From Rhizobium sp. BG4 (GTDB taxonomy: Bacteria > Pseudomonadota > Alphaproteobacteria > Rhizobiales > Rhizobiaceae): a stretch of 64,000 bases of DNA. Each line of letters opens with the position of its first letter. The first letter of the stretch is position 1. Shown here piece after piece: positions 22,864 through 38,472 of this stretch. The notes under the pieces were generated by a model. That model ran no database searches, was not told where the DNA came from, and saw only the letters and a list, made by a program, of their open reading frames with translations. The translations under genes and the position numbers were made by a program. The stretch spans positions 1,116,001-1,180,000 of the forward strand of contig NZ_CP044126.1 of the NCBI RefSeq assembly GCF_016864575.1, read 5' to 3'.

Positions 22864-25103
22864 TGGACATTCTCACCAGGGACGAAATCACCCGCCGCGG
22901 CCTGCTTGCCGGAACCGGCGCCCTCGTCGTCAGCTTCTCCGTTGTCCGGGCCCTTGCGCAGGACGCGCCCGCCGCGGCACCCGACAAGCCGAAGCTGCCG
23001 GGCAGCCTTGATGACGACCGTTATCTCGATAGCTGGATCAGGATCGATGCCGATGGCAAGATCACCGTTTTCACCGGCAAGGCCGAGCTCGGACAGGGCA
23101 TCCGCACGCCGCTGATCCAAGTGGCGGCGGAAGAGCTGGAGGTTGAGCCCGGCGACATCACGCTGGTCACTGCCGATACCGGCCGCACGCCCGATGAAGG
23201 CTTCACGGCCGGCAGCCAGTCGATGCAGAACAGCGGCACGGCGATCCGCAATGCGGCGGCGCAGGTGCGCGAGATGTTGATCGCCGAAGCCGCGCGCCGC
23301 TTCTCGCTGCCGCCTGAGCAGCTGAAGGCGGAGAAGAAAGCGATCACCGGTCCCGATGGAAAATCGGCGACTTACGGCGAACTCGTCGCCGGGCAGTTTC
23401 TGCATGTCGAAGCGCAGCCAAAATCGAAGCTGAAGGCGCCGGATATGCTGCGCGTCATCGGCCGGGATGTGCAGCGCGTCGATATTCCTGGAAAGGTCAC
23501 CGGCGGCGTTGCCTATGTTCAGGATCTGAAGCTGGAGGGCATGGTGCATGCCCGCGTCATCCGCCCGCCAAGCTATGGCGCGACGCTGAAGGAACTCGAC
23601 GCCACGCCGATTGAAGCCATGCCCGGTGTCGTCTCGGTGATCCGTGACGGCAATTTCCTGGCCGTCGTTGCCGATCGCGAATGGCATGCCGTCAAGGCGA
23701 TGCGCGCGCTGGAGAAAGTAGCCCACTGGGATGAACCGGCGACGCTGCCGGATCAGGCCGATCTCTACACCGTTCTTGTCGGCATGGAGAAAGAGGTCGG
23801 TACCGTGGCGGAATCGGGGGCACCCGCCTTTCCCAATGGCGCAACCTATGAGGCGACCTTCACGCGGCCCTATCATATGCATGGCTCGATCGGCCCCTCC
23901 TGCGGCGTTGCGCATCTGAAGCAGGACGGCACGATCGATGTCTGGTCGCATACGCAGGGTGTCTTTCCGGATCGCACCGCGATCGCTCAGATGATCGGCC
24001 TGCCTGAGGACAAGGTGCGGGTCATCCATATGGAGGGCTCCGGCTGCTACGGCCATAATGGCGCCGATGACGCTGCCGCGGATGCGGCGCTGATCGCCAT
24101 GAAAATCCCCGGCCGTCCGGTCCGCGTCCAGTGGATGCGCGAGCAGGAGCATGGCTGGGAGCCTTATGGGCCGGGTATGGTGACCAAGGTCAGGGCATCG
24201 CTCGACGCTTCTGGCAAGATCGACAACTGGACCTACGATCTCTGGAGCAACTCGCATGGCACCCGTCCCGGCGACGCCGGATCGCTGCTTGCCGGGCGCA
24301 CCAAGGCCGATGCAGTGCCGCTGAAACTGCCGAAGCTTTCGATCAATCCGAACGGCAATGGCGATCGCAATGCCGATCCCCTCTATGCGATCCCGAACCG
24401 GAAGATCCTCTGGCATTTTCTGCCGGATATGCCGATCCGCGTCTCGGCGCTCCGGGGGCTCGGGGCCTATGCCAATGTCTTTTCGATCGAGAGCACGATG
24501 GATGAACTGGCAATCGCCGCCAAGGCCGATCCGGTCGAGTTCCGCCTGCGCCACCTTCAGGACAGCCGCGCCAGCGATGTCGTGAAAATGGCGGCCGAGA
24601 AATTCGGCTGGGGGCAGGGAGAGGTGCCGCAAGGCCATGGCCGCGGCTTCGCCTTTGCGCGCTACAAGAACCACGCCGCCTATCTGGCGCTGGCGCTCGA
24701 AGCGCGCATCGAGCCGGAAACCGGCCGCGTTCAAGTGATCCGTGCCGTTGCCGCTATCGACAGCGGCCAGGCGGTCAATCCTGATGGCATCCGCAACCAG
24801 ACGGAAGGCGGGATCCTGCAGTCGATCAGCTGGACGCTCTATGAGCAGGTCACCTTCGACCGTACGCGGATCACCAGCACAGACTGGTCGAGCTATCCGA
24901 TCCTGCGCTTTGCGAGCGTCCCTGAAAGTGTCGAGGTGCATGTGATCGATCGGCCCGGCCAGCCCTTCCTCGGCACCGGCGAGGCGGCGCAGGGGCCAAC
25001 CTCGGCAGCCGTCGCCAACGCCATCCGCAACGCGACGGGCAAGCGTTTGACCGATCTGCCGCTGTCGCGCAGCCGCGTGCGTCAGGCGGCGGGTTTGGGA
25101 TAA
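22863..25103 (+). CDS. Molybdopterin large subunit, aldehyde oxidase/IorB-like
   Basis: This 746-residue catalytic subunit of a xanthine-oxidase-superfamily hydroxylase has a twin-arginine signal near the N-terminus (TRRGLLAGTGALVVSFSVV), so the holoenzyme is exported folded to the periplasm, consistent with the cytochrome partner. Family marks are the start of the first molybdopterin domain (VTGGVAYVQDLKLEGMVHA), GCYGHNGADDAAADAA and the C-terminal active-site region FLGTGEAAQGPT with its conserved Glu. ATG at 22863 overlaps the previous stop. The substrate (aldehyde or N-heterocycle) cannot be told from sequence. Confidence 0.9.
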   Translation: MDILTRDEITRRGLLAGTGALVVSFSVVRALAQDAPAAAPDKPKLPGSLDDDRYLDSWIRIDADGKITVFTGKAELGQGIRTPLIQVAAEELEVEPGDITLVTADTGRTPDEGFTAGSQSMQNSGTAIRNAAAQVREMLIAEAARRFSLPPEQLKAEKKAITGPDGKSATYGELVAGQFLHVEAQPKSKLKAPDMLRVIGRDVQRVDIPGKVTGGVAYVQDLKLEGMVHARVIRPPSYGATLKELDATPIEAMPGVVSVIRDGNFLAVVADREWHAVKAMRALEKVAHWDEPATLPDQADLYTVLVGMEKEVGTVAESGAPAFPNGATYEATFTRPYHMHGSIGPSCGVAHLKQDGTIDVWSHTQGVFPDRTAIAQMIGLPEDKVRVIHMEGSGCYGHNGADDAAADAALIAMKIPGRPVRVQWMREQEHGWEPYGPGMVTKVRASLDASGKIDNWTYDLWSNSHGTRPGDAGSLLAGRTKADAVPLKLPKLSINPNGNGDRNADPLYAIPNRKILWHFLPDMPIRVSALRGLGAYANVFSIESTMDELAIAAKADPVEFRLRHLQDSRASDVVKMAAEKFGWGQGEVPQGHGRGFAFARYKNHAAYLALALEARIEPETGRVQVIRAVAAIDSGQAVNPDGIRNQTEGGILQSISWTLYEQVTFDRTRITSTDWSSYPILRFASVPESVEVHVIDRPGQPFLGTGEAAQGPTSAAVANAIRNATGKRLTDLPLSRSRVRQAAGLG

Positions 25104-25110
25104 AAGGAGG

Positions 25111-25344
25111 TCAGCGGCCCGTGCTGCGATAGCGGTCGCGGGCCGAAGGCTTGGCCGTCGGTGATTTCAGGCGAAAGCGAACCAGAACCTCGGCGCCATC
25201 GAGCGAGGCGCGGGTGCGCTCCAGTTCGTCGCGTTCGCGGACGGCCTGTATCCAGTGTTCGGCATCATGTCCGCTCAGGTGGCCGGAAAGTTCCCAAAGC
25301 GCATAGGCGCGCTTGGCGATCCACTCGTCTCTGGCATCGGCCAT
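25111..25344 (-). CDS. DUF2934 family small protein
   Basis: This 77-residue protein starts at ATG 25344 (MADARDEWIAKRAYALWELSG) and has the same DUF2934 signature as the gene at 20623, including the His-Trp pair (AEHWIQAVRERDELERTR) and a basic tail. It lies 19 bases after the ECF sigma factor stop on the same strand, so the two probably form an operon. That link, and the sigma-EcfG promoter near the other copy, suggests a stress-related role; this is inference. Confidence 0.8.
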   Translation of the reverse strand: MADARDEWIAKRAYALWELSGHLSGHDAEHWIQAVRERDELERTRASLDGAEVLVRFRLKSPTAKPSARDRYRSTGR

Positions 25345-25363
25345 CACGTTCTCCAGCAATGAT

Positions 25364-25891
25364 TTAATGAATGGATGTCGCTTCCGAAAATTCGGTCTCG
25401 CCGAGCATTTCCAGCAGATGGCAGCGGGCGCGATTGACCCGGCTCTTGATCGTGCCGATTTCACAATTGCAGAGGACCGCCGCCTCTTCATAACTAGCGC
25501 CCGAAACGACGAGGAGAAGGGCGACGCGATGCGTGTTGCGCAGTTTGGCGATCGCCGCCTGGACATCGAGCGCCCGCATCGCCCAGTCCTGCGTCGATTT
25601 CACCGGCAGCTGGTAATCACTGAGATCGTCGACGGAGCCGACCGGCTCGCGCCGGCGACGCCGGTAGGCGCTGCAATAGGTGTTGCGCATGATGGTGAAA
25701 AGCCAGGATTTCAGGCTGGTACCGTCGTGAAACTGGTCCATATGCCCGAGCGCTCGCGACAGCGTCTCCTGCACAAGATCGTCGGCATCGTTCTCTCCGC
25801 GCTCGAAGCGCCGGGCGAAGGATTTGAGGGCGGGAAGAAGAGAGACGATTTCGGCCTGGTGGCCGGACAAGGCAACTGCAGTCTGGGTCAT
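25364..25891 (-). CDS. ECF-family RNA polymerase sigma factor
   Basis: This 175-residue group IV sigma factor has region 2 with ARRFERGENDADDLVQETL (core and -10 recognition) and LKSWLFTIMRN, and region 4 with the helix-turn-helix SGASYEEAAVLCNCEIGTIK followed by SRVNRAR. It looks like the EcfG-type rhizobial sigma factors, but no nepR or phyR anti-sigma/response-regulator gene is adjacent, so it may be a second EcfG copy or another ECF group. A near match to the EcfG promoter (GGAAC-N16-CATT, coding strand, 25917-25941) lies 25 bases upstream and hints at autoregulation. It is followed by a DUF2934 gene. Confidence 0.85.
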   Translation of the reverse strand: MTQTAVALSGHQAEIVSLLPALKSFARRFERGENDADDLVQETLSRALGHMDQFHDGTSLKSWLFTIMRNTYCSAYRRRRREPVGSVDDLSDYQLPVKSTQDWAMRALDVQAAIAKLRNTHRVALLLVVSGASYEEAAVLCNCEIGTIKSRVNRARCHLLEMLGETEFSEATSIH

Positions 25892-26023
25892 GGCGGTTTC
25901 CTTCTGGTGGAAGGGTAATGCCGCTTGATGCGCTGCGTTCCGGGGGGTGTGCCGTTGGGTACGAAAGCGTACTGCGATTTATCGGCCGGCGGCTGGAAAT
26001 GACGGCCGAAGGCCGGAAGACAA
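25892..26023. other. Spacer between ECF sigma gene and repeat-protein terminator
   Basis: This holds the probable sigma-gene promoter (GGAAC-N16-CATT at 25917-25941, coding strand minus). No credible reading frame or other repeat was seen in the rest. Confidence 0.4.
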
Positions 26024-26052
26024 GAAAGGCGCAGCTTGTGGCCGCGCCTTTC
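26024..26052 (-). terminator. Terminator downstream of octapeptide-repeat gene
   Basis: On the minus strand GAAAGGCGC (26052-26044) pairs with GCGCCTTTC (26032-26024) and is followed by a T-rich TTGTCTT. It lies 21 bases after the repeat-protein stop, so that gene is probably transcribed as a single cistron. Confidence 0.72.
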
Positions 26053-26073
26053 CGTCGTCCCTAGGGGACGTTC

Positions 26074-29000
26074 TTATGCTTCGCCGTAGGCGGCGATTGC
26101 CGCTGCGACTGCGCCGATCTGCGTGTCATTCATCGCCTGGATCTGGTCCGAGGTGAAGGCCTTCAGCGGATCCTCGTCGAGGCCAGCGATATCTTCGGCA
26201 GCGATGCCGGAGATTGCCTTGACGTTGATTGCTGCGATGTCTTCTTCGGAGAACTCCTTGAGGTCTTCAGGCGACATGGCGGCGATCTGCGTGGCGGTCA
26301 GCTTTGCAGTCTGGTCGGAGGTCAAGCCGCCGATCTGCTCTGCCGACATCCCGGTGATCTGGGAGGCCTTCAGACCGGTGACGGCCGTTACGCTGAGCTT
26401 GCCGATCTGGGCAGCAGAGAGACCAGCGATCTGCTCGTCCGTCAGCGCGCCAACCTGGACTGCCGAGAGGGCACCGAGCTGGGCATCGCTGAACTTGCCG
26501 AGCTGGCCAGCCGTAAAGCCGGTGATCTGCTTGGCGGAGACCGCACCGATCTGGTCGACCGACAGCTTGCCGATCTGGTCGTCGCTCAGTGCACCGATGG
26601 CGGTGTTGCTCAGACCTGCGACTGCAGCCTTGGTGATCGTAGCCACACCATCCTCGGAGAGGCCGGTGATGTTGTCGGCGGTGAGGCCGGCAGTCTGAAC
26701 TGCGGTCAAGAGACCAGCCTGGGTCGCCGTCAGGCCACCAACCTGCTCGTCGGTCATCGCAGTGATCTGCGTTGCCTTGAGGCCGGTGGTGCCTGCGTTG
26801 CTCAGCTGGCCGATCTGGTCAGCGGAGAAACCAGCGATCTGGTCAGTGGTCAGAGCGCCGACCTGTACTGCAGAGAGGGCACCCATCTGTGCGCTGCTGA
26901 ACTTGCCGAGCTGGGCAGCCGAGAAGCCAGCCATCTGGGTCGAGAGCAGGCCGGAGATCTGATCCGTGCTCAGCTTGCCGATCTGTTCTTCGGTCAGAAC
27001 ACCGATGGCGTCGTTCTTAAGGCCGTTGATTGCCTTGGCGCCGATGGCGCCAATTTCATCGGCAGAGAACTTCTTGACGTCATCAGCCGACAGGGCGCCG
27101 ACCTGGGCAGCAGAGAGAGCGCCTGCCTGAGCGACGCTGAGCCCTTCGAGCTGCACGTCGGACATGCCAGAGATCTGGGTTGCCTTCAGTCCGCCGACAG
27201 CGGCGTTGCTGAGCTTGCCGATCTGGGCGGCCGAGAAGCCGGCGATCTGCGTATCGCTCAGAGCACCGACCTGGGCGGCCGTCAGGGCACCGATCTGCTC
27301 ATCGCTGAACTTGCCGAGCTGACCTGCGGTGAAGCCGGCGACCTGCGTGGTCGTGACTGCACCGATCTGTTCGGCAGAGAGAGCGCCAAGCTGGTCATCG
27401 CTGAGGACGGCGATTGCCTCGTTCTTCAGGCCAGGGATGGCCTTCGTACCGATCTTGGCAACTGCGTCTTCAGACAGGCCGGTGATGTTGGTAGCGCTGA
27501 AGCCGCCAACCTGGGCTGCCGTCAGGAGGGCCGCCTGGGTGTCGGTGATGCCGCCAACCTGTTCGTCGGTCAGGGCAGTGATCTGCGTTGCCTTGAGACC
27601 GGAAACAGCCTTGTCGCTCAGCTTGCCGATCTGGTCGTCCGTGAAGCCACCGATCTGCGTGGTCGTCAGAGCGCCAGCCTGAGCCGCCGTCAGGGCGCCG
27701 ACCTGTTCATCGCTGAACTTGCCGAGCTGACCTGCGGTGAAGGCAGTGACCTGCGTGGTCGTAACCGCGCCGATCTGTGCAGCCGAGAGCTTCGCAACCT
27801 GACCGTCGGTCAGAACGGCGATGGCTTCGTTCTTCATGCCGCTGATCGACTTGGTGCTGATCTTCGCAACAGCATCCTCAGACAGCTTGGTGACGTTCGC
27901 AGCGGTGAAGCCGCCGACCTGAGCCGCGGTCATGAGACCGGCCTGAGTGTCGGTGATGCCTGCAACCTGGGTATCCGTCATTGCAGCGATCTGCGTTGCC
28001 TTCAGACCCGCGACCGCCTTGTCGCTGAGCTTGCCGATCTGAGCGGCAGAGAGACCTGCGATCTGATCGTTGGTCAGCGAGCCGACCTGAGCTGACGTCA
28101 GGGCGCCCATCTGTTCATCGCTGAACTTGCCGAGCTGATCAGCCGTGAAGGCGGTGATCTGCTTGGTGCTGAGTACGCCGACCTGTGCAGCGGACAGTGC
28201 GCCGAGCTGATCATCGCTGAGAACAGCAATCGCTGCGTTTGCGAGGCTGGTGATCGACTTCGTGCTGAGCTTGGCAACACCGGTCTCGGAGAGGCCGGTG
28301 ATGTTGTCAGCGGTGAAGCCGGCAACCTGAGCTGCGGACAGCAGGCCAGCCTGGGTGTCGGTGATACCGCCAACCTGTTCGTCGGTCATGGCAGTGATCT
28401 GCGTTGCCTTCAGGCCAACGACGGCCTTGTCGCTGAGCTTGCCGATCTGATCTGCCGTCAGGCCACCGATCTGATCGTTGGTCAGCGAGCCGACCTGGAC
28501 TGCCGTCAGAGCGCCCATCTGTTCATCGCTGAACTTGCCGAGCTGCGCTGCGGAGAAGCCGGTGATCTGCTTGGCAGTCATCGCGCCGATCTGGCCAGCC
28601 GAGAGCTTGCCAACCTGTGCTTCGGTCAGGACGCCGATCGCATCGTTGCTCAGGCCGCCGATGGCTTTGGTGCTGATCGCACCGATTTCGTCGGCAGAGA
28701 ACTTCTTGATGTCGTCAGCCGTGAGAGCACCAACCTGGGCAGCCGACAGAGCGCCGGCCTGAGCAACGCTCAGTCCTTCGAGCTGCACGTCTGTCATAGC
28801 GCTGATCTGCGTAGCCTTGAGGCCTGCGACGGCCTTGTCGCTGATCTTGCCGATCTGGGCGGCAGAGAGACCCGTGATCTGGTCGTTGGTCAGCGAGCCG
28901 ACCTGAGCTGCAGTGAGAGCGCCGATCTGTTCATCGCTGAACTTGCCGAGCTGAGCGGCCGTGAAGCCGGTGATCTGCTTGGTGCTGAGCACGCCGACCT

Positions 29001-31146
29001 GAGCAGCCGAGAGAGCGCCAACCTGATCGTCGCTGAGGACGCCGATTGCTTCGTTCTTCAGGCTGATGATTGCCTTGGTGCTGAGCTTGGCGACACCGGT
29101 TTCGGAGAGGCCGGTGATGTTGGTTGCGCTGAAGCCGCCAACCTGAGCTGCCGTCAGCAGGCCAGCCTGGGTGTCGGTCATGCCGCCAACCTGTTCGTCG
29201 GTCATGGCAGCGATCTGCGTAGCCTTCAGGCCAGCGAATGCCTTGTCGCTGAGCTTGCCGATCTGATCAGCCGTCAGGCCGCCGATCTGGTCGTTGGTCA
29301 GCGAGCCGACCTGAGCCGCCGTGAGAGCGCCGATCTGTTCGTCGTTGAACTTGCCGAGCTGCGCTGCGGAGAAGCCAGTGATCTGCTTGGTGGTGATCGC
29401 GCCGATCTGGCCAGCGGAGAGCTTACCAACCTGTGCTTCAGTCAGAACGCCGATCGCATCGTTGCTCAGGCTGCCGATCGCCTTGGTGCTGATCGCACCG
29501 ATTTCGTCGGCAGAGAACTTCTTGATGTCGTCAGCCGTGAGAGCGCCGACCTGGGCAGCCGAGAGAGCGCCGGCCTGAGCAACGCTCAGACCTTCGAGCT
29601 GCACGTCTGTCATCGCGGAGATCTGCGTAGCCTTGAGGCCTGCGACAGCCTTGTCGCTGATCTTGCCGATCTGGTCGGCAGAGAGACCGGTGATCTGGTC
29701 GTTGGTCAGCGAGCCGACCTGAGCTGCCGTCAGGGCACCAATCTGTTCATCGCTGAACTTGCCGAGCTGAGCGGCGGTGAAGCCGGTGATCTGCTTGGCG
29801 CTGAGCGCTCCAACCTGGGCAGCGGAGAGAGCGCCGACCTGGTCGTCGCTGAGGACAGCGATTGCTTCATTCTTCAGGCCAGCGATGGCCTTGGTGCTCA
29901 GCTTGGCAACACCGGTTTCGGAGAGGCCGGTGATGTTGGTTGCGCTAAAGCCGCCAACCTGGGCTGCCGTCAGCAGGCCAGCCTGGGTGTCGGTCATGCC
30001 GCCAACCTGTTCGTCGGTCATGGCAGCGATCTGCGTAGCCTTCAGGCCGACGACAGCCTTGTCGCTCAGCTTGCCGATCTGGTCGGCAGAGAGGCCGCTG
30101 ATCTGGTCATTGGTCAGCGAGCTGACCTGAACCGCCGTCAGGGCGCCCATCTGCTCATCGCTGAACTTGCCGATCTGCGCCGACGTGAAGCCGGTGATCT
30201 GCTTGGCGGTCATCGCGCCGATCTGGCCGGCGGAGAGTGCACCAACCTGGTCTTCGGTGAGGACGGCGATTGCTTCATTCTTCAGGCTGACGATTGCCTT
30301 GGTGCCGAGCTTGGCAACAGCATCTTCGGAGAGGCCCGTGATGTTGGTGGCGGTGAAGCCGGCGACCTGCGCAGCACTCAGAACGCCTGCCTGGTCGGCG
30401 GTAAAGCCTTCAACCTGAGACGACGTCATGGCGGTGATCTGGGTTGCCTTGAGACCGGCAACAGCCTTGAGGCTGAGCTGGCCGACCTGGTCACCGCTGA
30501 AGCCACCAACCTGGGTGGTGCTGAGAGCGCCGACCTGTACGGCCGACAGGGCGCCCATCTGTGCTTCGCTGAACTTGCCGAGCTGGGCCGAGGTCAGCGC
30601 AGTCATCTGCTTCGTGGTCAGCGCCGCGATCTGGTCGGTGCTGAGTTTGGCGATCTGGTCGTCGGTCAGGCCGGCGACGGCGTCGTTGCTCAGGCCTGCG
30701 ATTGCCTTGGCGCTGATGGCGCCAACTTCATCAGCCGAGAACTTGGCGATGTCGTCTGCGCCGAGCGAACCGATCTGCGCGGCGCTCAGGCCCTTGATCT
30801 GGTCGGAGGTCAGGTTTTCGACCTGATCGGCGGAAAGCGCGGCCATCTGGGTGGTGCTGAAGGCAGCGACCTGGGCGTTGCTCAGGTCCTTGAACTTGGT
30901 GGCATCGATTGCACCGAGCTGGGCGGCGCTGAGGCCGCCGATCGCGGCTGTGGAGATCGCGCCGAGCTGGTCGGAACCGAGAGCGCCCACATCTTCGGCT
31001 TCGAAGGCAGCAACCTGCGTCTTGTTGAGAAGCTTCAGCTGGTCGACGGAGAATGCTGCAACGTCGTCCTTGGTAAAGGCTTTGATGGTTGTAGCGGAAA
31101 GAGCTTTGATTTGATTTGCAGAGAGAGAAGTAACGATCGAGGTCAT
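26074..31146 (-). CDS. Giant octapeptide-repeat protein, about 1,690 residues, unknown function
   Basis: I do not recognise a described family. From about residue 9 to ten residues before the C-terminus the chain divides into about 210 gapless octapeptides, consensus [S/T]-x-x-Q-[I/V]-x-x-[L/F/M], for example TAAQVGSL, TNDQIGGL, TADQIGKL. Position 1 Ser/Thr with position 4 Gln/Glu is a helix-capping box, so each octad may be one short helical turn of a solenoid. I saw no Cys, Trp, Arg or His and one Tyr (C-terminal AAYGEA). Lys and Asp/Glu are the charged residues. There is no Sec signal. A Cys-free, repeat-built protein suggests secretion, perhaps by a type I system, but no transporter is adjacent. 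ATG 31146 (MTSIVTSLSANQIKAL) is chosen; the frame extends to 31227. The single-cistron layout is flanked by an ECF sigma gene and a Crp gene. Confidence 0.85.
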   Translation of the reverse strand: MTSIVTSLSANQIKALSATTIKAFTKDDVAAFSVDQLKLLNKTQVAAFEAEDVGALGSDQLGAISTAAIGGLSAAQLGAIDATKFKDLSNAQVAAFSTTQMAALSADQVENLTSDQIKGLSAAQIGSLGADDIAKFSADEVGAISAKAIAGLSNDAVAGLTDDQIAKLSTDQIAALTTKQMTALTSAQLGKFSEAQMGALSAVQVGALSTTQVGGFSGDQVGQLSLKAVAGLKATQITAMTSSQVEGFTADQAGVLSAAQVAGFTATNITGLSEDAVAKLGTKAIVSLKNEAIAVLTEDQVGALSAGQIGAMTAKQITGFTSAQIGKFSDEQMGALTAVQVSSLTNDQISGLSADQIGKLSDKAVVGLKATQIAAMTDEQVGGMTDTQAGLLTAAQVGGFSATNITGLSETGVAKLSTKAIAGLKNEAIAVLSDDQVGALSAAQVGALSAKQITGFTAAQLGKFSDEQIGALTAAQVGSLTNDQITGLSADQIGKISDKAVAGLKATQISAMTDVQLEGLSVAQAGALSAAQVGALTADDIKKFSADEIGAISTKAIGSLSNDAIGVLTEAQVGKLSAGQIGAITTKQITGFSAAQLGKFNDEQIGALTAAQVGSLTNDQIGGLTADQIGKLSDKAFAGLKATQIAAMTDEQVGGMTDTQAGLLTAAQVGGFSATNITGLSETGVAKLSTKAIISLKNEAIGVLSDDQVGALSAAQVGVLSTKQITGFTAAQLGKFSDEQIGALTAAQVGSLTNDQITGLSAAQIGKISDKAVAGLKATQISAMTDVQLEGLSVAQAGALSAAQVGALTADDIKKFSADEIGAISTKAIGGLSNDAIGVLTEAQVGKLSAGQIGAMTAKQITGFSAAQLGKFSDEQMGALTAVQVGSLTNDQIGGLTADQIGKLSDKAVVGLKATQITAMTDEQVGGITDTQAGLLSAAQVAGFTADNITGLSETGVAKLSTKSITSLANAAIAVLSDDQLGALSAAQVGVLSTKQITAFTADQLGKFSDEQMGALTSAQVGSLTNDQIAGLSAAQIGKLSDKAVAGLKATQIAAMTDTQVAGITDTQAGLMTAAQVGGFTAANVTKLSEDAVAKISTKSISGMKNEAIAVLTDGQVAKLSAAQIGAVTTTQVTAFTAGQLGKFSDEQVGALTAAQAGALTTTQIGGFTDDQIGKLSDKAVSGLKATQITALTDEQVGGITDTQAALLTAAQVGGFSATNITGLSEDAVAKIGTKAIPGLKNEAIAVLSDDQLGALSAEQIGAVTTTQVAGFTAGQLGKFSDEQIGALTAAQVGALSDTQIAGFSAAQIGKLSNAAVGGLKATQISGMSDVQLEGLSVAQAGALSAAQVGALSADDVKKFSADEIGAIGAKAINGLKNDAIGVLTEEQIGKLSTDQISGLLSTQMAGFSAAQLGKFSSAQMGALSAVQVGALTTDQIAGFSADQIGQLSNAGTTGLKATQITAMTDEQVGGLTATQAGLLTAVQTAGLTADNITGLSEDGVATITKAAVAGLSNTAIGALSDDQIGKLSVDQIGAVSAKQITGFTAGQLGKFSDAQLGALSAVQVGALTDEQIAGLSAAQIGKLSVTAVTGLKASQITGMSAEQIGGLTSDQTAKLTATQIAAMSPEDLKEFSEEDIAAINVKAISGIAAEDIAGLDEDPLKAFTSDQIQAMNDTQIGAVAAAIAAYGEA
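26484..30971 (-). repeat. Tandem 408-bp super-repeats (11 units) inside the octapeptide gene
   Basis: The segment encoding QLGKFSD recurs at 26484, 26892, 27300, 27708, 28116, 28524, 28932, 29340, 29748, 30156 and 30564: ten intervals of exactly 408 bp (17 octapeptides, 136 residues) with no indel. Two unit types are seen. Type A carries QAGLLTAAQVGGF and SETGVAKL; type B carries QLEGLSVAQAGAL and DDIKKFSADEIGAI. From the N-terminus the order is A A B A B A A A B A plus a divergent last unit. The A-B, A-B stretch looks like a recent 816-bp duplication. Boundaries are set by the anchor and are arbitrary in phase. Confidence 0.88.
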
Positions 31147-31555
31147 GAAAGGTGCCCTTGCACTGGCGTTAGCGGTGACAGTGTCATTCGTCCGCGCGTC
31201 GTTCCCAAGAAGTTGGCAGATCCCCAACTGCAGACACGGGGGCTCGTGCCGTGCACAACTGCAAGGCCGATCGGCTTAGACGAAATGTTTCGGAAGACAT
31301 CGCTCGAGAGAGCAGTCGCTTAGGACAAGCATCATGCGTACGGCGCCTCGCATTTGAGACGCCGGTTCCTAAACCGAAGACGCCCGGCAGGAAGCCGCAC
31401 ATCTCTAGCCTTGGTTTCTGAGACCCCCACGGCCAAAAATAGAAATATGTTGGAAGCCCTAATTATGGGTTAATTTTCGCGTAATGCTGGCACGTGCCGG
31501 GGCACCAAAAGTCTAACTTCTTGGATTACCCCAAAAAAGGGCAGTATAAATTCTT

Positions 31556-31573
31556 GTGTTATTTTTATAACAC
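31556..31573. promoter_or_regulatory. Inverted repeat GTGTTAT-N4-ATAACAC
   Basis: This is a perfect 7-bp inverted repeat with a TTTT spacer in AT-rich DNA upstream of the repeat-protein gene and downstream of the crp-like gene. Either an operator or a small hairpin is possible; a protein site is more likely because the stem is AT-rich. Confidence 0.45.
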
Positions 31574-31590
31574 TGCGAAGGATATGCATA

Positions 31591-31604
31591 TCAATATCTA
31601 TTGA
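31591..31604. promoter_or_regulatory. Crp/Fnr-like palindrome TCAATA-N2-TATTGA
   Basis: This is a 14-bp perfect palindrome nine bases from the crp-like gene's stop. It is similar in size and AT content to Fnr/FixK sites (TTGAT-N4-ATCAA) but not a match. The two neighbouring Crp/Fnr regulators make it a reasonable candidate site for one of them. Confidence 0.35.
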
Positions 31605-31612
31605 ATTATGAG

Positions 31613-32341
31613 CTACTGATTCAGCCGCGACAATGCCACTCCGAGCAACCTGCGGTACTCCTCTTCCGCCGCGCCATAGGAGCCGTTCGCCTCTTCCATC
31701 AGGCCCCGGCGGCTGAGGATAGTGATCTGGCCGCGATTGGCGCGAACAAGGCCTTTTCCCTCGAGAATATGGAGTGCGACAGTGATGCCGGGGCGGCGGA
31801 CACCCAGCATGACGGCGAGGAATTCGTGGGTCAGCGAGATGGTATTGCCGTCCATGCGGTCATGGACCATCAACAGCCAGCGCGCGAGTCGCTCTTCGAG
31901 TTTCGCATGACCGTTTGCCAGCACGGTCGACGACATTTGCGCCAGAAAGGCCTGAACATAGGCAAGCAGCTTGGCGCGCAGCGTGGCGCTCGTGTCGATC
32001 GCCGCTTGCAGCGCCGCAGAAGTGATTCGGTAGCCGGTACCGGAGACCTGCATAAAGGTCATGTTCGGGGATTGCTCGCCGCCGAGGACGATCGCGGCCC
32101 CGGTCATTCCCTCGCGTCCGGCAATGCCGACCTCGATGTCCCGCCCGCCCGACAGGCGGGCGACGATCGAGGCGAGACCTGATTCCAGGAAGATGACGAA
32201 ATCGACGGGCACATGCGCCTTTTCGATCTGGTAGGGGATATCGAGCGTCACGAATTCGAGATGCGGGGAAAGAAGTGCCAGATCGCTGGCATCGAGGCTT
32301 TTCAGCAGTTCATTGCGGTAGTGGCGCTCTTCAGTCGGCAT
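31613..32341 (-). CDS. Crp/Fnr-family transcriptional regulator
   Basis: This 242-residue regulator starts at ATG 32341 (MPTEERHYRNELLKSL); the frame runs on to 32590 but the upstream residues are not family-like. An N-terminal cyclic-nucleotide-type beta-roll (FLESGLASIVARLSGGRDIEVGIAGREGMTG) is followed by a dimerisation helix and a C-terminal winged helix with LTHEFLAVMLGVRRPGITVAL as the HTH. The cysteines of Fnr are absent, so it is not an oxygen-sensing Fe-S protein. It is a clear paralogue of the gene at 32787, with the same RWLLMVHDR and EGKGL motifs. It lies downstream of nothing and upstream of the repeat-protein leader. Confidence 0.86.
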   Translation of the reverse strand: MPTEERHYRNELLKSLDASDLALLSPHLEFVTLDIPYQIEKAHVPVDFVIFLESGLASIVARLSGGRDIEVGIAGREGMTGAAIVLGGEQSPNMTFMQVSGTGYRITSAALQAAIDTSATLRAKLLAYVQAFLAQMSSTVLANGHAKLEERLARWLLMVHDRMDGNTISLTHEFLAVMLGVRRPGITVALHILEGKGLVRANRGQITILSRRGLMEEANGSYGAAEEEYRRLLGVALSRLNQ

Positions 32342-32510
32342 TCTCGTCCCCACGGCCGGCGGGGTAAAGCCGACTCGATTGAAAAGGAACCTACCGCCTT
32401 GAAATTGCAGTACAACCGACTGTCTCTTACCGTACAAAGATGAGCGATCGCCGGAATGGAACAACATCACCGGTTTTGAAGTTCGGCACCCAAAGAACGG
32501 AGTGTCCGGC
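32342..32510. other. Promoter region of the crp-like gene
   Basis: This 169-bp spacer separates the crp-like gene (minus) from a small plus-strand frame. It contains no clear operator, although GATCGCTCATC at about 32444 resembles half of the palindrome at 19899-19914. Nothing else is supported. Confidence 0.35.
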
Positions 32511-32786
32511 GTGGCGGCGAGAACGTTCCATCGATATGCGCGATCACAGGATGTGCCCAACACAGCCGTGCGCCTGATCCTGCGGGTCATCGAGGATAGT
32601 GTCGTTGCCGATGTCGAATGGCCGGCAAATGCCGAGACGGATGCGGGAAACTATCTCTACCCGACCTATGTGCCGCTGGCGATCGAGCGGGCCGAGGATG
32701 TCCGTGTGCACTACGGATTCATCGAGGTCGCCGTCGTGACCGGCAATCCGGATCTCTGGAACGAAGCCTGGGGCAGGCTGGTCTGA
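32511..32786 (+). CDS. Hypothetical protein, 91 residues
   Basis: A small frame begins at GTG 32511 eight bases after GGAG. The product reads as a soluble domain: TAVRLILRVIEDSVVADVEW, then ETDAGNYLYPTYVPLAIERAEDVRVHYGFIEVAVVTG, ending NEAWGRLV. Composition and codon pattern are normal for the region, and the stop abuts the convergent crp-like stop at 32787. I do not recognise the family. An internal GTG about 14 codons later is an alternative start. Confidence 0.6.
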   Translation: MAARTFHRYARSQDVPNTAVRLILRVIEDSVVADVEWPANAETDAGNYLYPTYVPLAIERAEDVRVHYGFIEVAVVTGNPDLWNEAWGRLV

Positions 32787-33503
32787 TCAACGGATCTTCC
32801 AGCCGAGCACGCGCTCATATTCCGCTTCCGTACGGCCATAGCTGCCATTGGCCTGCTGCTTCAGGCCTTCGCGGTCGATGATGGTGATCTCGGAGCGGTG
32901 CGAGCGGATCAGCCCCTTCCCCTCCAGCATATGCAGCGCGACGGTAACGCCGGGGCGGCGCACGCCGAGCATGATTGACAGGAACTCATGGGTCAGCGCC
33001 AGTTTCTGGCCCTCGATGCGATCGTGAACCATCAGCAGCCAGCGGGCCAGCCGGTTTTCCAGCACGGTATGGCCGTTAGTCCAGGCGGTCGAGGCGACCT
33101 GCAGGTTCAGCGCCCGGGTGAAGCGGCCGAAATGGCGGCGCATCTGCGGCCGGGCGTCCATCAGTTCCATGAGTTCTCCGGACCGTATGCGATAGGCCTC
33201 GCCGGGGATCTGGATATAGGTCTTGAATGGCCCCCGGTCGTCCCAGAGCACCAGTGATGAGCCGACGAAGCCTTCCCAGCCGATGACGCCGACTTCGATA
33301 TCGCGGCCGCGCGACATCGAGGCGATGGTCGAGGCGAGGCCGCTCTCCATGAAATAGGCAAACTCCAGCGGCTGGTTGGGCTTCTCCACCTCTTCGCCGA
33401 GCGGCAGTAAGACGCGCTCCAGCAGCGGCTCCAGCTTGGCGAAATCGGCGGCTGGCAGCGTCGAAATCATGAAATTCCGGAAGATCGCTTGCCGGGTATT
33501 CAC
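32787..33503 (-). CDS. Crp/Fnr-family transcriptional regulator (paralogue)
   Basis: This 238-residue Crp/Fnr-type regulator is closely related to the product of 31613-32341. The effector-binding roll contains YFMESGLASTIASMSRGRDIEVGVIGWEGF, and the HTH is LTHEFLSIMLGVRRPGVTVALHMLEGKGLIR. No Fnr cysteines are present. ATG at 33503 gives MNTRQAIFRNFMIS; Met-12 is a possible alternative start. It is separated by three bases from the upstream metallophosphoesterase gene, so those genes may be co-transcribed. Confidence 0.86.
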   Translation of the reverse strand: MNTRQAIFRNFMISTLPAADFAKLEPLLERVLLPLGEEVEKPNQPLEFAYFMESGLASTIASMSRGRDIEVGVIGWEGFVGSSLVLWDDRGPFKTYIQIPGEAYRIRSGELMELMDARPQMRRHFGRFTRALNLQVASTAWTNGHTVLENRLARWLLMVHDRIEGQKLALTHEFLSIMLGVRRPGVTVALHMLEGKGLIRSHRSEITIIDREGLKQQANGSYGRTEAEYERVLGWKIR

Positions 33504-35312: not shown

Positions 35313-35475
35313 GAGATAATTCTCCCCAGGCTCGTTGAGGAGAAGGAACCGGCGAGGCGGACAAAAGTTCCCTGTGGATGACGCGTCGAGTTGTGCCGGG
35401 GTGAGGCTGCACGTGCAGGAAGCGTTAACGCGCAGCCCCGATAATCGCGCAGGTTTAGGCGCTTGGAGACAAGAC

Positions 35476-37023
35476 GTGAAGCGCAGTGATATCAGGCAGT
35501 TCTACATGCGGCATCGGGTTTCGATACACGATCTTCTCATTCTCATAGCGGCGATGCTCGTCGTCGCCTATATCGCCTTCGAGGTCGATATCTTCGTAAC
35601 GGAAGGTGCGGTCAGCGCGGCCGAGGAGACGATCGAGCTCGATGAAGCGCTGATGCTGGGCGGGTTGCTCGCCGTCGGCATGCTGGTCTTTGCCGTGCGC
35701 CGCTACATCGACCAGAAGCGTGAGACGGCGCGCCGCATCGTCGCCGAGCGCAAGGCACGCGAACTGGCCTTTCAGGATCCGTTGACGGGTCTCGCCAACC
35801 GGCGCCAGTTCGACGACGCGCTGCGCGTCGCGGCTTCCTCGCCGCCGGCGGCCGGCCAGCATCACGGCATTTTCCTGCTCGATCTCAATGGTTTCAAGAA
35901 GATCAATGACAGCTACGGCCACGGCGCCGGTGACGAGGTGCTGCTGATCGTCGCCCAGCGCCTTCTTTCCGCAGTGCGGCCCGGCGATCTCGTTGCCCGT
36001 CTCGGCGGCGATGAATTCGTCATTCTGGCGCCGCATCTCTTGGGCGCCGAAGCCGCGACGACGCTCGCGATGCGCATCGTCCAGGCCTTTGCCGATCCGA
36101 TCGCCACCGGCATGATCATCCACCAGATCGGCACCGGAATCGGCATCTCGCTCTATCCGCGGGATGGCGAACAGCCGAGCGAACTGGTGCGAAAGGCGGA
36201 TGTCGCGCTCTACCGCGCCAAGGGCGAGCAGCGCTCGGCGATCCGCTTCTTCGAAGAGGAAATGGATCTGCTCCTGAAGGAGCGGGGCCGCATGGAAGTT
36301 GCCATGCGCAAGGCGATGGCGGACGGCGCCATCGAACCGCGCTTCCGGCCCTCCTTCGATCTCAACACCGGGGAAGTGACCGCTTTCGAGGCCGTGCCCT
36401 ATTGGGAAATGGACGAAACGGAAGTGCCTGTCGAGCGCTTCCTGGCAATCGCCGAAGAGACCGGCATGATCCATGCGCTGTTCGAAAGCGTGCTGAAACG
36501 CGCCTGCGCCGGAGCGCGCAACTGGCCGCCCGAAACCAGGCTGTCGATCGATATCTTCCCCGGTCAGCTGCGGGATGCCAATCTCGGCCAGACCATCCTG
36601 TCGATCCTGAAGACCTGCAATTTCGATCCGCACCGGCTGGAAGTGGAAATCGCCGAGGCAACGCTGGTGCGAGATTTCGAGACCGCCAAGCAGGCGCTGG
36701 CGCCACTGCGCGAAACCGGCGTGACGATGACGCTCGACCATTTCGGCACCGGCTATTCCAATCTCTACCACATCCAGGAATTCAAGCTCGACAAGGTGAA
36801 GATCGACCGTCGCTTCACGGAAAATCTGAACGACGACCGCTCGGCGCGGATGATGCGGGCGCTTGCCGGTCTCGGCCATGGATTGGGGCTGACGGTGACC
36901 GCCGATGGCATCGAGGGCGATGCCTCGCCGCTCATCTCCTCGGGCATCGAACATGGCCAGGCGGTGACCGCCATGGTGACCGTCGACGAGGCGGCGATGC
37001 TCTTCCGCAAGGCCAGCGTGTAG
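35476..37023 (+). CDS. GGDEF domain protein with degenerate EAL domain
   Basis: This 515-residue inner-membrane signalling protein has two membrane segments near residues 16-33 and 58-76, then a GGDEF domain with intact RLGGDEF (about residue 175), implying diguanylate cyclase activity. The EAL domain (from about residue 270) keeps some motifs but not others: EAL is EAV, the metal-binding Asn is Asp (LSIDIFP), DDFGTG is DHFGTG and the late AEGVE is ADGIE. Phosphodiesterase activity is therefore doubtful, and it may serve as a c-di-GMP-binding or regulatory module. The GTG at 35476 (VKRSDIRQF) is preferred; the frame is open to 35335. Confidence 0.86.
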   Translation: MKRSDIRQFYMRHRVSIHDLLILIAAMLVVAYIAFEVDIFVTEGAVSAAEETIELDEALMLGGLLAVGMLVFAVRRYIDQKRETARRIVAERKARELAFQDPLTGLANRRQFDDALRVAASSPPAAGQHHGIFLLDLNGFKKINDSYGHGAGDEVLLIVAQRLLSAVRPGDLVARLGGDEFVILAPHLLGAEAATTLAMRIVQAFADPIATGMIIHQIGTGIGISLYPRDGEQPSELVRKADVALYRAKGEQRSAIRFFEEEMDLLLKERGRMEVAMRKAMADGAIEPRFRPSFDLNTGEVTAFEAVPYWEMDETEVPVERFLAIAEETGMIHALFESVLKRACAGARNWPPETRLSIDIFPGQLRDANLGQTILSILKTCNFDPHRLEVEIAEATLVRDFETAKQALAPLRETGVTMTLDHFGTGYSNLYHIQEFKLDKVKIDRRFTENLNDDRSARMMRALAGLGHGLGLTVTADGIEGDASPLISSGIEHGQAVTAMVTVDEAAMLFRKASV

Positions 37024-37170
37024 CGTTCGGAGGCGTCCCGGTACACGCCTTCCTCCCGGAAATGTCAGAAGAGAACTGAAAAATATCCGCAATTCCGCGG
37101 ATCGTTTGCTTTCATTGTCAGCGCTTTGCCCTTATCTTGGGGCCATCCTTGTCGATGTTATAGGCTTCTT
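37024..37170 (+). other. Spacer before CNNM/CBS gene
   Basis: This is a 147-bp gap between the GGDEF gene and the next membrane protein. No operator, terminator or gene is recognisable with confidence. Confidence 0.35.
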
Positions 37171-38472
37171 TTGTTAGTCGAAATCATTATCGTGGTATTG
37201 CTCACCGTTCTGAACGGTGTGCTCGCCATGTCCGAACTTGCTGTCGTTTCTTCCCGTCCCGCCCGTCTTAAAGTTCTCGCCGATCACGGAAGCCGGGGCG
37301 CCACTCAAGCCATCAGACTTGCTGAAAATCCCGGACGCTTTCTGTCCACCGTGCAGATCGGCATCACGCTGGTCGGCGTTCTCTCGGGTGCCTTTTCGGG
37401 CGCCACCCTCGGCGGCCGCCTGACACAGTGGCTCTCCGAGCAGGGCGTGGGCCCCGCACTCTCCGATGCGCTCGGCGTCGGTACCGTCGTCGTCGCCATC
37501 ACCTATCTGTCGCTGATCGTCGGCGAACTGGTGCCAAAGCAGATCGCGCTGCGGGAGCCGGAAGCGGTTGCCGCCAAGGTGGCGCCGGCCATGGTCGTGC
37601 TGTCGAAATTCGCGCTGCCGCTCGTCTGGCTACTCGATGCATCGGGCAAGCTGGTGCTGAGGCTGCTTGGCCAGTCCGGCAAGGTCAGCGATGGCGTGAC
37701 CGACGAAGAGATCAAGACCGTTCTTGCCGAGGCGCAGAGCGCGGGCGTTATCGAGAGCGAAGAATCGGCAATGATTTCAGGCGTCATGCGCCTAGCTGAC
37801 CGCACGGCGCGCGCCCTGATGACGCCGCGCCGCGATGTCGAGGTCGTCGATATCGACGACACTCCGGAAGAAATCCGTAAGCAGCTGCAAGAGACGCGCC
37901 GTTCGCGCGTTCCGGTGCGCCGCGGCAGTTCCGACGAAGTCTTCGGCGTGCTCTTCGTCAAGGATTACTATGACGCGATGAACAGCAACGGCCATGCGGA
38001 TATCCAGGCGCTGGCCCACGAAGTCCCCGTTATCTCGGACCTGTCGACCGCCACCCACGCGATCCAGGCGATCCGCAAGTCGCCGGTGCATATGGTGCTC
38101 GTCTATGACGAATACGGCCATTTCGAAGGCATCATTTCGTCCGGCGACATCATGGAAGCGATCATGGGCGCGTTGCTCGAAGGTCCGTCCGAAGAGCAGG
38201 CGATCGTTCGCCGCACCGATGGTTCCTACCTCGTTTCCGGCTGGACGCCGATCGACGAATTCGCCGAATTCATGAGCTTCAAGCTCGATGATGACATCGA
38301 GTTCCAGACGGTGGCGGGCCTGATCCTCGAGGAACTGAAGCACCTGCCGGAACTCGGCGAGAGCTTCGTCAAGAACGGCTGGCGCTTCGAGGTCATCGAT
38401 CTCGATGGCCGCCGCGTCGACAAGATTCTCGTCTCGGCAGAGGCCGAGGAAAGCGAAGCGCGGTCGGCCTGA
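37171..38472 (+). CDS. CNNM/CorC-type membrane protein with CBS domains (HlyC/CorC family)
   Basis: This protein of about 433 residues has an N-terminal DUF21 membrane domain (LTVLNGVLAMSELAVVSSRP onward, four helices), a linker, two CBS motifs (MTPRRDVEVVDIDDTPEEI and VYDEYGHFEGIISSGDIMEA) and a C-terminal CorC_HlyC domain (FQTVAGLILEELKHLPE). This layout is shared with CNNM/CorB-type Mg2+ transporters, often mislabelled hemolysin. The start is uncertain: a TTG at 37171 gives a good first helix, while the next ATG would cut it. No adjacent partner gene is evident. Confidence 0.85.
   Translation: MLVEIIIVVLLTVLNGVLAMSELAVVSSRPARLKVLADHGSRGATQAIRLAENPGRFLSTVQIGITLVGVLSGAFSGATLGGRLTQWLSEQGVGPALSDALGVGTVVVAITYLSLIVGELVPKQIALREPEAVAAKVAPAMVVLSKFALPLVWLLDASGKLVLRLLGQSGKVSDGVTDEEIKTVLAEAQSAGVIESEESAMISGVMRLADRTARALMTPRRDVEVVDIDDTPEEIRKQLQETRRSRVPVRRGSSDEVFGVLFVKDYYDAMNSNGHADIQALAHEVPVISDLSTATHAIQAIRKSPVHMVLVYDEYGHFEGIISSGDIMEAIMGALLEGPSEEQAIVRRTDGSYLVSGWTPIDEFAEFMSFKLDDDIEFQTVAGLILEELKHLPELGESFVKNGWRFEVIDLDGRRVDKILVSAEAEESEARSA

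Follow-up and report, generated by a model that had tools for sequence, protein, structure and literature searches.

We know of hardly any bacterial substrates of GT41 glycosyltransferases beyond flagellins and HMW-type adhesins. Octad repeats are catalogued in Pfam as the ALTTAQ repeat (PF20080), and the chain 'HeliScrew4' (9zem) has been solved. The open-licence PMC literature yielded nothing on 'HeliScrew', nothing relevant by title on ALTTAQ or PF20080, and, for GT41 combined with repeats, adhesins, secretion or Rhizobium, no article concerning ALTTAQ by its title or the start of its abstract. Both ALTTAQ genes whose annotation was examined, and whose octads were confirmed, are labelled 'hypothetical protein'. 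As far as the excerpt of the study goes, FlmG modifies flagellins, to which its TPR domain binds (PMC7591256). Proteins exported by PrsDE of Rhizobium leguminosarum have a signal peptide score of 0.000 in the excerpted part of a second study (PMC2275737).

Here, a member of this repeat family was analyzed in a stretch of 64,000 nucleotides of Rhizobium sp. BG4 (NZ_CP044126.1, positions 1,116,001 to 1,180,000), referred to as the window.

The octad-repeat gene and its product

The gene (26074..31146, minus strand) encodes an ALTTAQ-repeat (PF20080) protein of 1690 amino acids with about 200 octads. Its open frame spans 26074-31227 on the minus strand; the start is the ATG at 31146, and the resulting N-terminus (MTSI) agrees with congeneric homologues. 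A composition count bore out the absence of Cys, Trp, Arg and His given in the preliminary description, and Pro and Tyr occur three times and once, respectively. A loose octad pattern was found 199 times versus a mean of 54 (maximum 70) in shuffled sequences, and the strict pattern [ST]xxQ[IV]xx[LFM] 81 times versus 0.5 expected (maximum 3 in 200 shuffles). A single phase holds 195 of the 199 loose octads, with 10 breaks, six of which are one missed octad each. This main phase comprises 211 octad slots, 163 of them fitting [ST]xxx[IVAL]xx[LFMI]. The octad pattern noted earlier is real, and this is confirmed; the stated number of about 210 octads is right for the register but not for strict matches. 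Position 1 is Ser/Thr in 84% of the octads, position 4 is Gln in 68% (Ala 17%, Asp 4%, Glu 2%) and position 5 is Ile/Val in 77%, in a segmentation that itself favours hydrophobic residues at positions 5 and 8.

The octads are organized in 11 in-register super-repeats of 136 residues (17 octads, 408 bp) at 26227..30714 on the minus strand, corresponding to a tandem repeat row at 26354-30716. The C-terminus beyond the last unit (26074..26226, minus strand) is included in one of the structural models below. Pairwise identity among the 11 units is 52-96%, and an alignment of eight overlapping rows, each of three units, is free of gaps. Identity is 96% between units 3 and 5 and 85-90% among units 2, 4 and 6, a pattern that suggests duplication of 272-residue pairs of units. 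Divergence between units shows a pN/pS of 0.43 and a median dN/dS of 0.33 (55 pairs), therefore the protein, beyond the DNA alone, is conserved.

The preliminary description had taken the repeats for an undescribed class. The window protein matches PF20080 with 638.8 bits (E 2.3e-197, 57 stretches), far above the gathering cut-off of 26.4 bits, and by sequence it matches 9zem (E 4.5e-16, 110 of 120 residues), which is essentially the kind of family hit that the preliminary description had named as counter-evidence, PF20080 itself being a family catalogued by sequence. Judged by sequence, the repeat class is already known and has one solved relative. TPR, HEAT, pentapeptide and RTX repeats are, as had been stated, absent from the 10 Pfam families found at E up to 10. 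Bflower_2, Gp5_trimer_C and Bflower (Pfam E 3e-25 to 1.6e-8, above cut-offs) as well as LRR rows in the PDB (E 1.9e-5 and weaker) were judged to be matches of composition and periodicity, not homology. A search of NCBIfam gave two rows, both below the cut-off.

AlphaFold2 predicts a helical solenoid. Three super-repeats, modelled together with the eight in-register rows from the window, reached a pLDDT of 96.9 and a pTM of 0.87, with one helix of approximately 3-6 residues per octad that begins at position 2 and is N-capped by position 1. The C-terminal 360 amino acids (26077-27156), modelled from the single sequence, gave 90.6 in the best model (71.8-90.6 over five models) and a terminal helix of 13 residues (model residues 344-356). 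Both predictions agree with the short helix per octad, the Ser/Thr cap and the continuous solenoid proposed earlier. AlphaFold2 can yield confident yet unrealistic models for repeats, described in the excerpt of the source for beta-solenoids (PMC11795689). We predict that the window protein is an ALTTAQ-family octad solenoid forming a stiff rod whose hydrophobic core is built from positions 5 and 8. Foldseek and VIA searches with the model revealed no close fold in the PDB, and 9zem was absent from the rows shown. The best rows were mesothelin and ARM-type superhelices (Foldseek best E 1.9e-5; TM up to 0.37 within the first seven rows), which stack short helices like the window model but share only 9-14% identity with it. 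The comparison with an ARM-type solenoid gave a Z of 6.5 and an rmsd of 6.0 over 238 residues, which is the 'common arrangement' range of the tool.

On the minus strand, the repeat gene is flanked upstream by a Crp-type regulator (HTH_Crp_2; 31613..32590) and downstream by a Sigma-70-family factor of ECF size (Sigma70_r2, Sigma70_r4_2; 25364..25891), both assigned by domain test. The intergenic leader to the upstream gene (31147..31612, minus strand) measures 466 bp by coordinates, as described before. Over 25000-33000 no match attained the gathering score of an Rfam family, and a search of 31100-31620 revealed no sigma-70-like site. It is plausible that the repeat gene forms its own transcription unit. 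The upstream regulator is part of a tandem pair of Crp-type regulators (31613-33503), and a GGDEF-EAL protein (35335-37023) is encoded upstream of the repeat gene at a distance of approximately 4 kb. A putative T1SS pair (35335-38472) was ruled out, as its domains are GGDEF-EAL and CNNM/CorC; the candidate neighbours that were domain-tested in the window include no T1SS genes.

Linkage to a GT41 glycosyltransferase and octad position 2

A second ALTTAQ copy of approximately 1823 amino acids is located on contig C1 of the BG4 genome. The 560-aa gene preceding this paralogue encodes a sulfatase and was set aside. With the own genome counted in each set, PF20080 was found in 16 of the 61 relatives and, in the wider sets, in 23 of the 151 genomes from the family, 6 of the 289 from the class and 25 of the 299 from the phylum. 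Several of these genomes show peculiarities. In family f202 very long ALTTAQ frames occur (up to 6436 aa in G447), and three of its genomes (G380, G433 and G422) have 29-45 GT41 matches each. A frame of approximately 4000 aa in G519 (contig C37) has few ALTTAQ matches and non-canonical octads, representing a different architecture. Homogentisate genes close to three loci were set aside as ordinary neighbours.

In 10 of an initial set of 20 regions, a gene with TPR and Glyco_transf_41 domains adjoins the repeat gene (domain content tested on the L029 protein). Nine of these genes follow the repeat gene in the same orientation, and that of L045 is divergent. Nine of the 10 enzymes are 69-100% identical to that of L029, the one of L044 47%. 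A PF12248 protein and a UDP-galactopyranose mutase follow the GT41 gene in some of these regions. Over 61 genomes, this linked subtype, assigned from score pattern and genomic place, was present in 14 of 16 ALTTAQ genomes and in none of the 45 others; identity between linked and other GT41s compared was 32-42%.

The ten linked GT41s were also used as queries, and the best 80 of 303 relatives were examined, several being on the same contigs as the initial regions. Among these best 80 of 303 loci, an ALTTAQ ORF was found in the examined flank of 74, and in 44 it precedes the GT41 gene in the same orientation by at most 1.5 kb. Six have none (L134, L136, L139, L184, L193, L204), and L139 offers only 178 bp upstream of the GT41 gene. 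By tblastn, the same best 80 of 303 include a mutase homologue in 65 cases and a PF12248 protein in 30. Within the genus, the mutase is present in 13 of 13 genomes with linked GT41 versus 7 of 24 without; G046 has the linked GT41 and no mutase. More distantly, GT41 and ALTTAQ lie within approximately 20 kb on one contig in at least 11 of 29 PF20080 genomes (among the matches listed), and 9 of 29 have no GT41, most of these with few weak repeat matches. On a plasmid of Rhizobium sp. CCGE531 (L251:13949-20031), annotated curlin genes and csgH are located just beyond the ALTTAQ-GT41-glf cluster.

Neither a UDP-galactopyranose mutase nor the linked GT41 subtype was found in the BG4 genome. Its sole GT41 match is of the flagellin-neighbour type and shares 37% identity with the linked subtype across the matched part. 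This gene (L107:2706-8232, contig C1) adjoins three flagellin genes and FliP/FlgH in a FlmG-like arrangement.

Presence of the linked enzyme goes along with a difference at a single position of the octad. When proteins were cut into octads without use of position 2 and then counted, the median share of Ser/Thr at this position was 80% (57-91) where the linked GT41 is present (26 genomes, of which 25 are Rhizobiaceae and one is G046) and 27% (13-62) where it is absent (nine genomes; Mann-Whitney p 1.8e-5, which is overstated, with kinship uncorrected and few independent events). Positions 1 and 3-8 did not differ (p 0.1 to 1). Four genomes with non-canonical octads (G519, G652, G686 and G701; position 1 Ser/Thr 31-47%) were excluded before counting, and G522 and G596 stand outside the count. 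G001 entered the count with one of its two overlapping pieces, and G013, G035 and G023 with long paralogues from contigs other than that of the GT41 gene. The BG4 genome is the extreme of this test, with 13% Ser/Thr. The window protein has Ser/Thr at positions 1, 2 and 3 in 84, 15 and 19% of octads, its paralogue in 80, 11 and 22%. In both proteins position 2 is mostly Ala, Asp or Pro, with Thr and Asn next.

Within the genus, copies adjacent to GT41 mostly have 86-96% Ser/Thr at position 2 (64-70% in L042), and long paralogues away from GT41 in GT41-bearing genomes have 64-79%. Outside the Rhizobiaceae the share is 95% in L090 and 94% in L092, with GT41 in the stretch, versus 29% in L091 and 27% in L095, without it; L090 and L091 belong to the same genome, and GT41 presence is not independent there, as distant regions were partly picked for a nearby GT41. 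Three further loci of other families (L093, L094, L103) range from 49 to 69%, L093 and L094 of one genome having 65-69%. The copy in L091 (2274-7499, genome G235) follows a 1741-aa protein with protein kinase, AAA, GAF and HATPase domains.

The nine GT41-less genomes perhaps represent two to four independent events. G719 and G678, which keep 62% and 54% Ser/Thr at position 2, cluster with the two BG4 copies (UFBoot 99, and 100 for the BG4 pair itself), and the intermediate values of G719 and G678 may reflect graded decay or decoupling. G717, G648, G743 and G758 form a second GT41-less clade (support 97); the tree does not place G638 or G008, the latter a fragment cut off by the end of its contig. 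In fragmented assemblies the absence of GT41 may be an assembly gap, for example in G008 (cut gene) and G743 (7-kb contig). The branch linking the window's clade to the rest of the tree has a support of 27. Therefore GT41 loss, rather than original absence, is likely in the window lineage, short of proven.

A proposed model of glycosylated rods, and alternatives

We consider it somewhat probable that ALTTAQ octad rods are O-glycosylated at position 2 and exported, and that the window protein is an unglycosylated variant. In the solenoid rod, Ser/Thr at position 1 would cap each helix N-terminally and the residues at 5 and 8 would form the core, with one short helix per octad. The neighbouring TPR-GT41 would act in the cytoplasm, in the way FlmG acts on flagellins, and decorate Ser/Thr at position 2, which lies in the first helix turn and is presumably exposed. 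Export of the glycosylated rod to the cell surface or the matrix would then follow a type I-like route. On the basis of linkage and of co-variation at this position we infer that GT41 transfers sugar to ALTTAQ proteins, and we likewise infer the identity of the sugar and the surface role of the rods.

The window protein and its paralogue belong to a lineage without linked GT41 and mutase. At position 2 they carry mainly Ala, Asp, Pro and Asn, and the N-cap Ser/Thr is kept; therefore the window protein is most likely a bare, unglycosylated rod. It would probably serve as a surface or matrix spacer or adhesin.

Export is suggested by distant loci. In 8 of 17 of them (L090, L092, L098, L099, L100, L102, L104 and L109, from the two lineages f77 and f202) an ABC exporter and an HlyD gene adjoin the repeat gene; domains were tested on L090 and L099, where the ABC exporter carries a weak C39-like domain, and the other loci were assigned by homologues at 57% or more. 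All eight also hold GT41, in regions partly picked for it. In 108 nearer loci, most of them from Rhizobiaceae (nearly all) and some lacking ALTTAQ, a search with two query pairs for exporters encoded at the loci themselves gave no HlyD homologue and, for the ABC queries, six weak matches (26-34% identity). Within the genus, an HlyB-type ABC protein was rejected as partner, as it is present with and without ALTTAQ. The secreted or surface filament of the preliminary description is supported indirectly by the type I pair at the 8 of 17 distant loci but not by the 108 nearer ones, and export in Rhizobium would hold by analogy.

Alternatively, the proteins could be cytoplasmic scaffolds or rulers that are not exported, with GT41 modification being regulatory as in eukaryotic O-GlcNAc. 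GT41 enzymes also act on cytosolic proteins. No signal peptide was seen by eye in ALTTAQ N-termini, and the lack of HlyD at the nearer loci fits this reading too. Against it stand the exporter pairs beside the distant repeat genes and the PrsDE-exported proteins mentioned above, which are exported despite their null signal peptide scores. We regard a purely cytoplasmic role as doubtful.

Position 2 could also vary for structural or compositional reasons, with Ala, Pro and Asp as alternatives in the first helix turn and the GT41 linkage as coincidental inheritance. The solved relative 9zem indeed has Pro at most position-2 slots, G719 and G678 keep 54-62% Ser/Thr without GT41, and independent losses are few. 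However, the contrast recurs in other families and even within one genome (L090 and L091), and 74 of the best 80 of 303 GT41 loci have an ALTTAQ ORF; this explanation appears unlikely. Equally improbable is a window protein that is still glycosylated, by the flagellin-type GT41 that BG4 keeps or at position 1, which remains 84% Ser/Thr, or position 3, since that enzyme gene adjoins flagellin genes and its product is only 37% identical to the linked subtype, and Ser/Thr at position 1 is equal with or without linked GT41, as for a structural N-cap.

Returning to glycosylated and exported rods, we give an even chance to a more specific version, in which ALTTAQ proteins are 'sugar rulers', rods with one O-glycan per octad that is added by a dedicated cytoplasmic GT41 before export by a T1SS, and in which the window lineage combines enzyme loss and acceptor decay with a retained fold. 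The glycan would possibly contain galactofuranose.

Significance and comparison with known systems

The GT41 context and the hypothesis of position-2 glycosylation are new here; the repeat family was already known, and the predicted fold agrees with the preliminary description. A repeat family annotated without function thereby gains a testable mechanism, comprising an enzyme partner, a prediction of the acceptor position and a series of natural losses. If true, a rigid rod with an acceptor in every octad would offer a new route to a dense, regularly spaced glycan surface, useful for glycoengineering and for understanding rhizobial surfaces, and the Rhizobium lineage of the window would be a natural experiment in enzyme loss with the fold retained.

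Compared to PF20080 at large, the best single repeat matches in the BG4 genome are weaker (2.1e-7 versus approximately 1e-12 in most relatives), and position-2 Ser/Thr is largely replaced in the window protein. The octad pattern is common to 9zem and the window protein, a likeness known by sequence only, but 9zem is a 120-residue chain with Thr/Ser-Pro-Glu/Asp octads. Like ALTTAQ proteins, the RTX/PrsDE substrates of Rhizobium are repetitive and have no signal peptide, as far as the excerpt describes them (PMC2275737). In contrast to RTX proteins, the window protein is predicted to be helical rather than a beta-roll, and RTX is absent from its Pfam rows. The precedent is provided by FlmG and the flagellins of Caulobacter, where, within the excerpt, a TPR protein with a glycosyltransferase acts in the cytoplasm on exported proteins of a surface filament (PMC7591256). 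The proposed substrate here differs in being an octad rod, and the linked GT41 is a separate subtype. Moreover, FlmG uses pseudaminic acid, whereas the linked GT41 loci have the mutase in 65 of the best 80 of 303.
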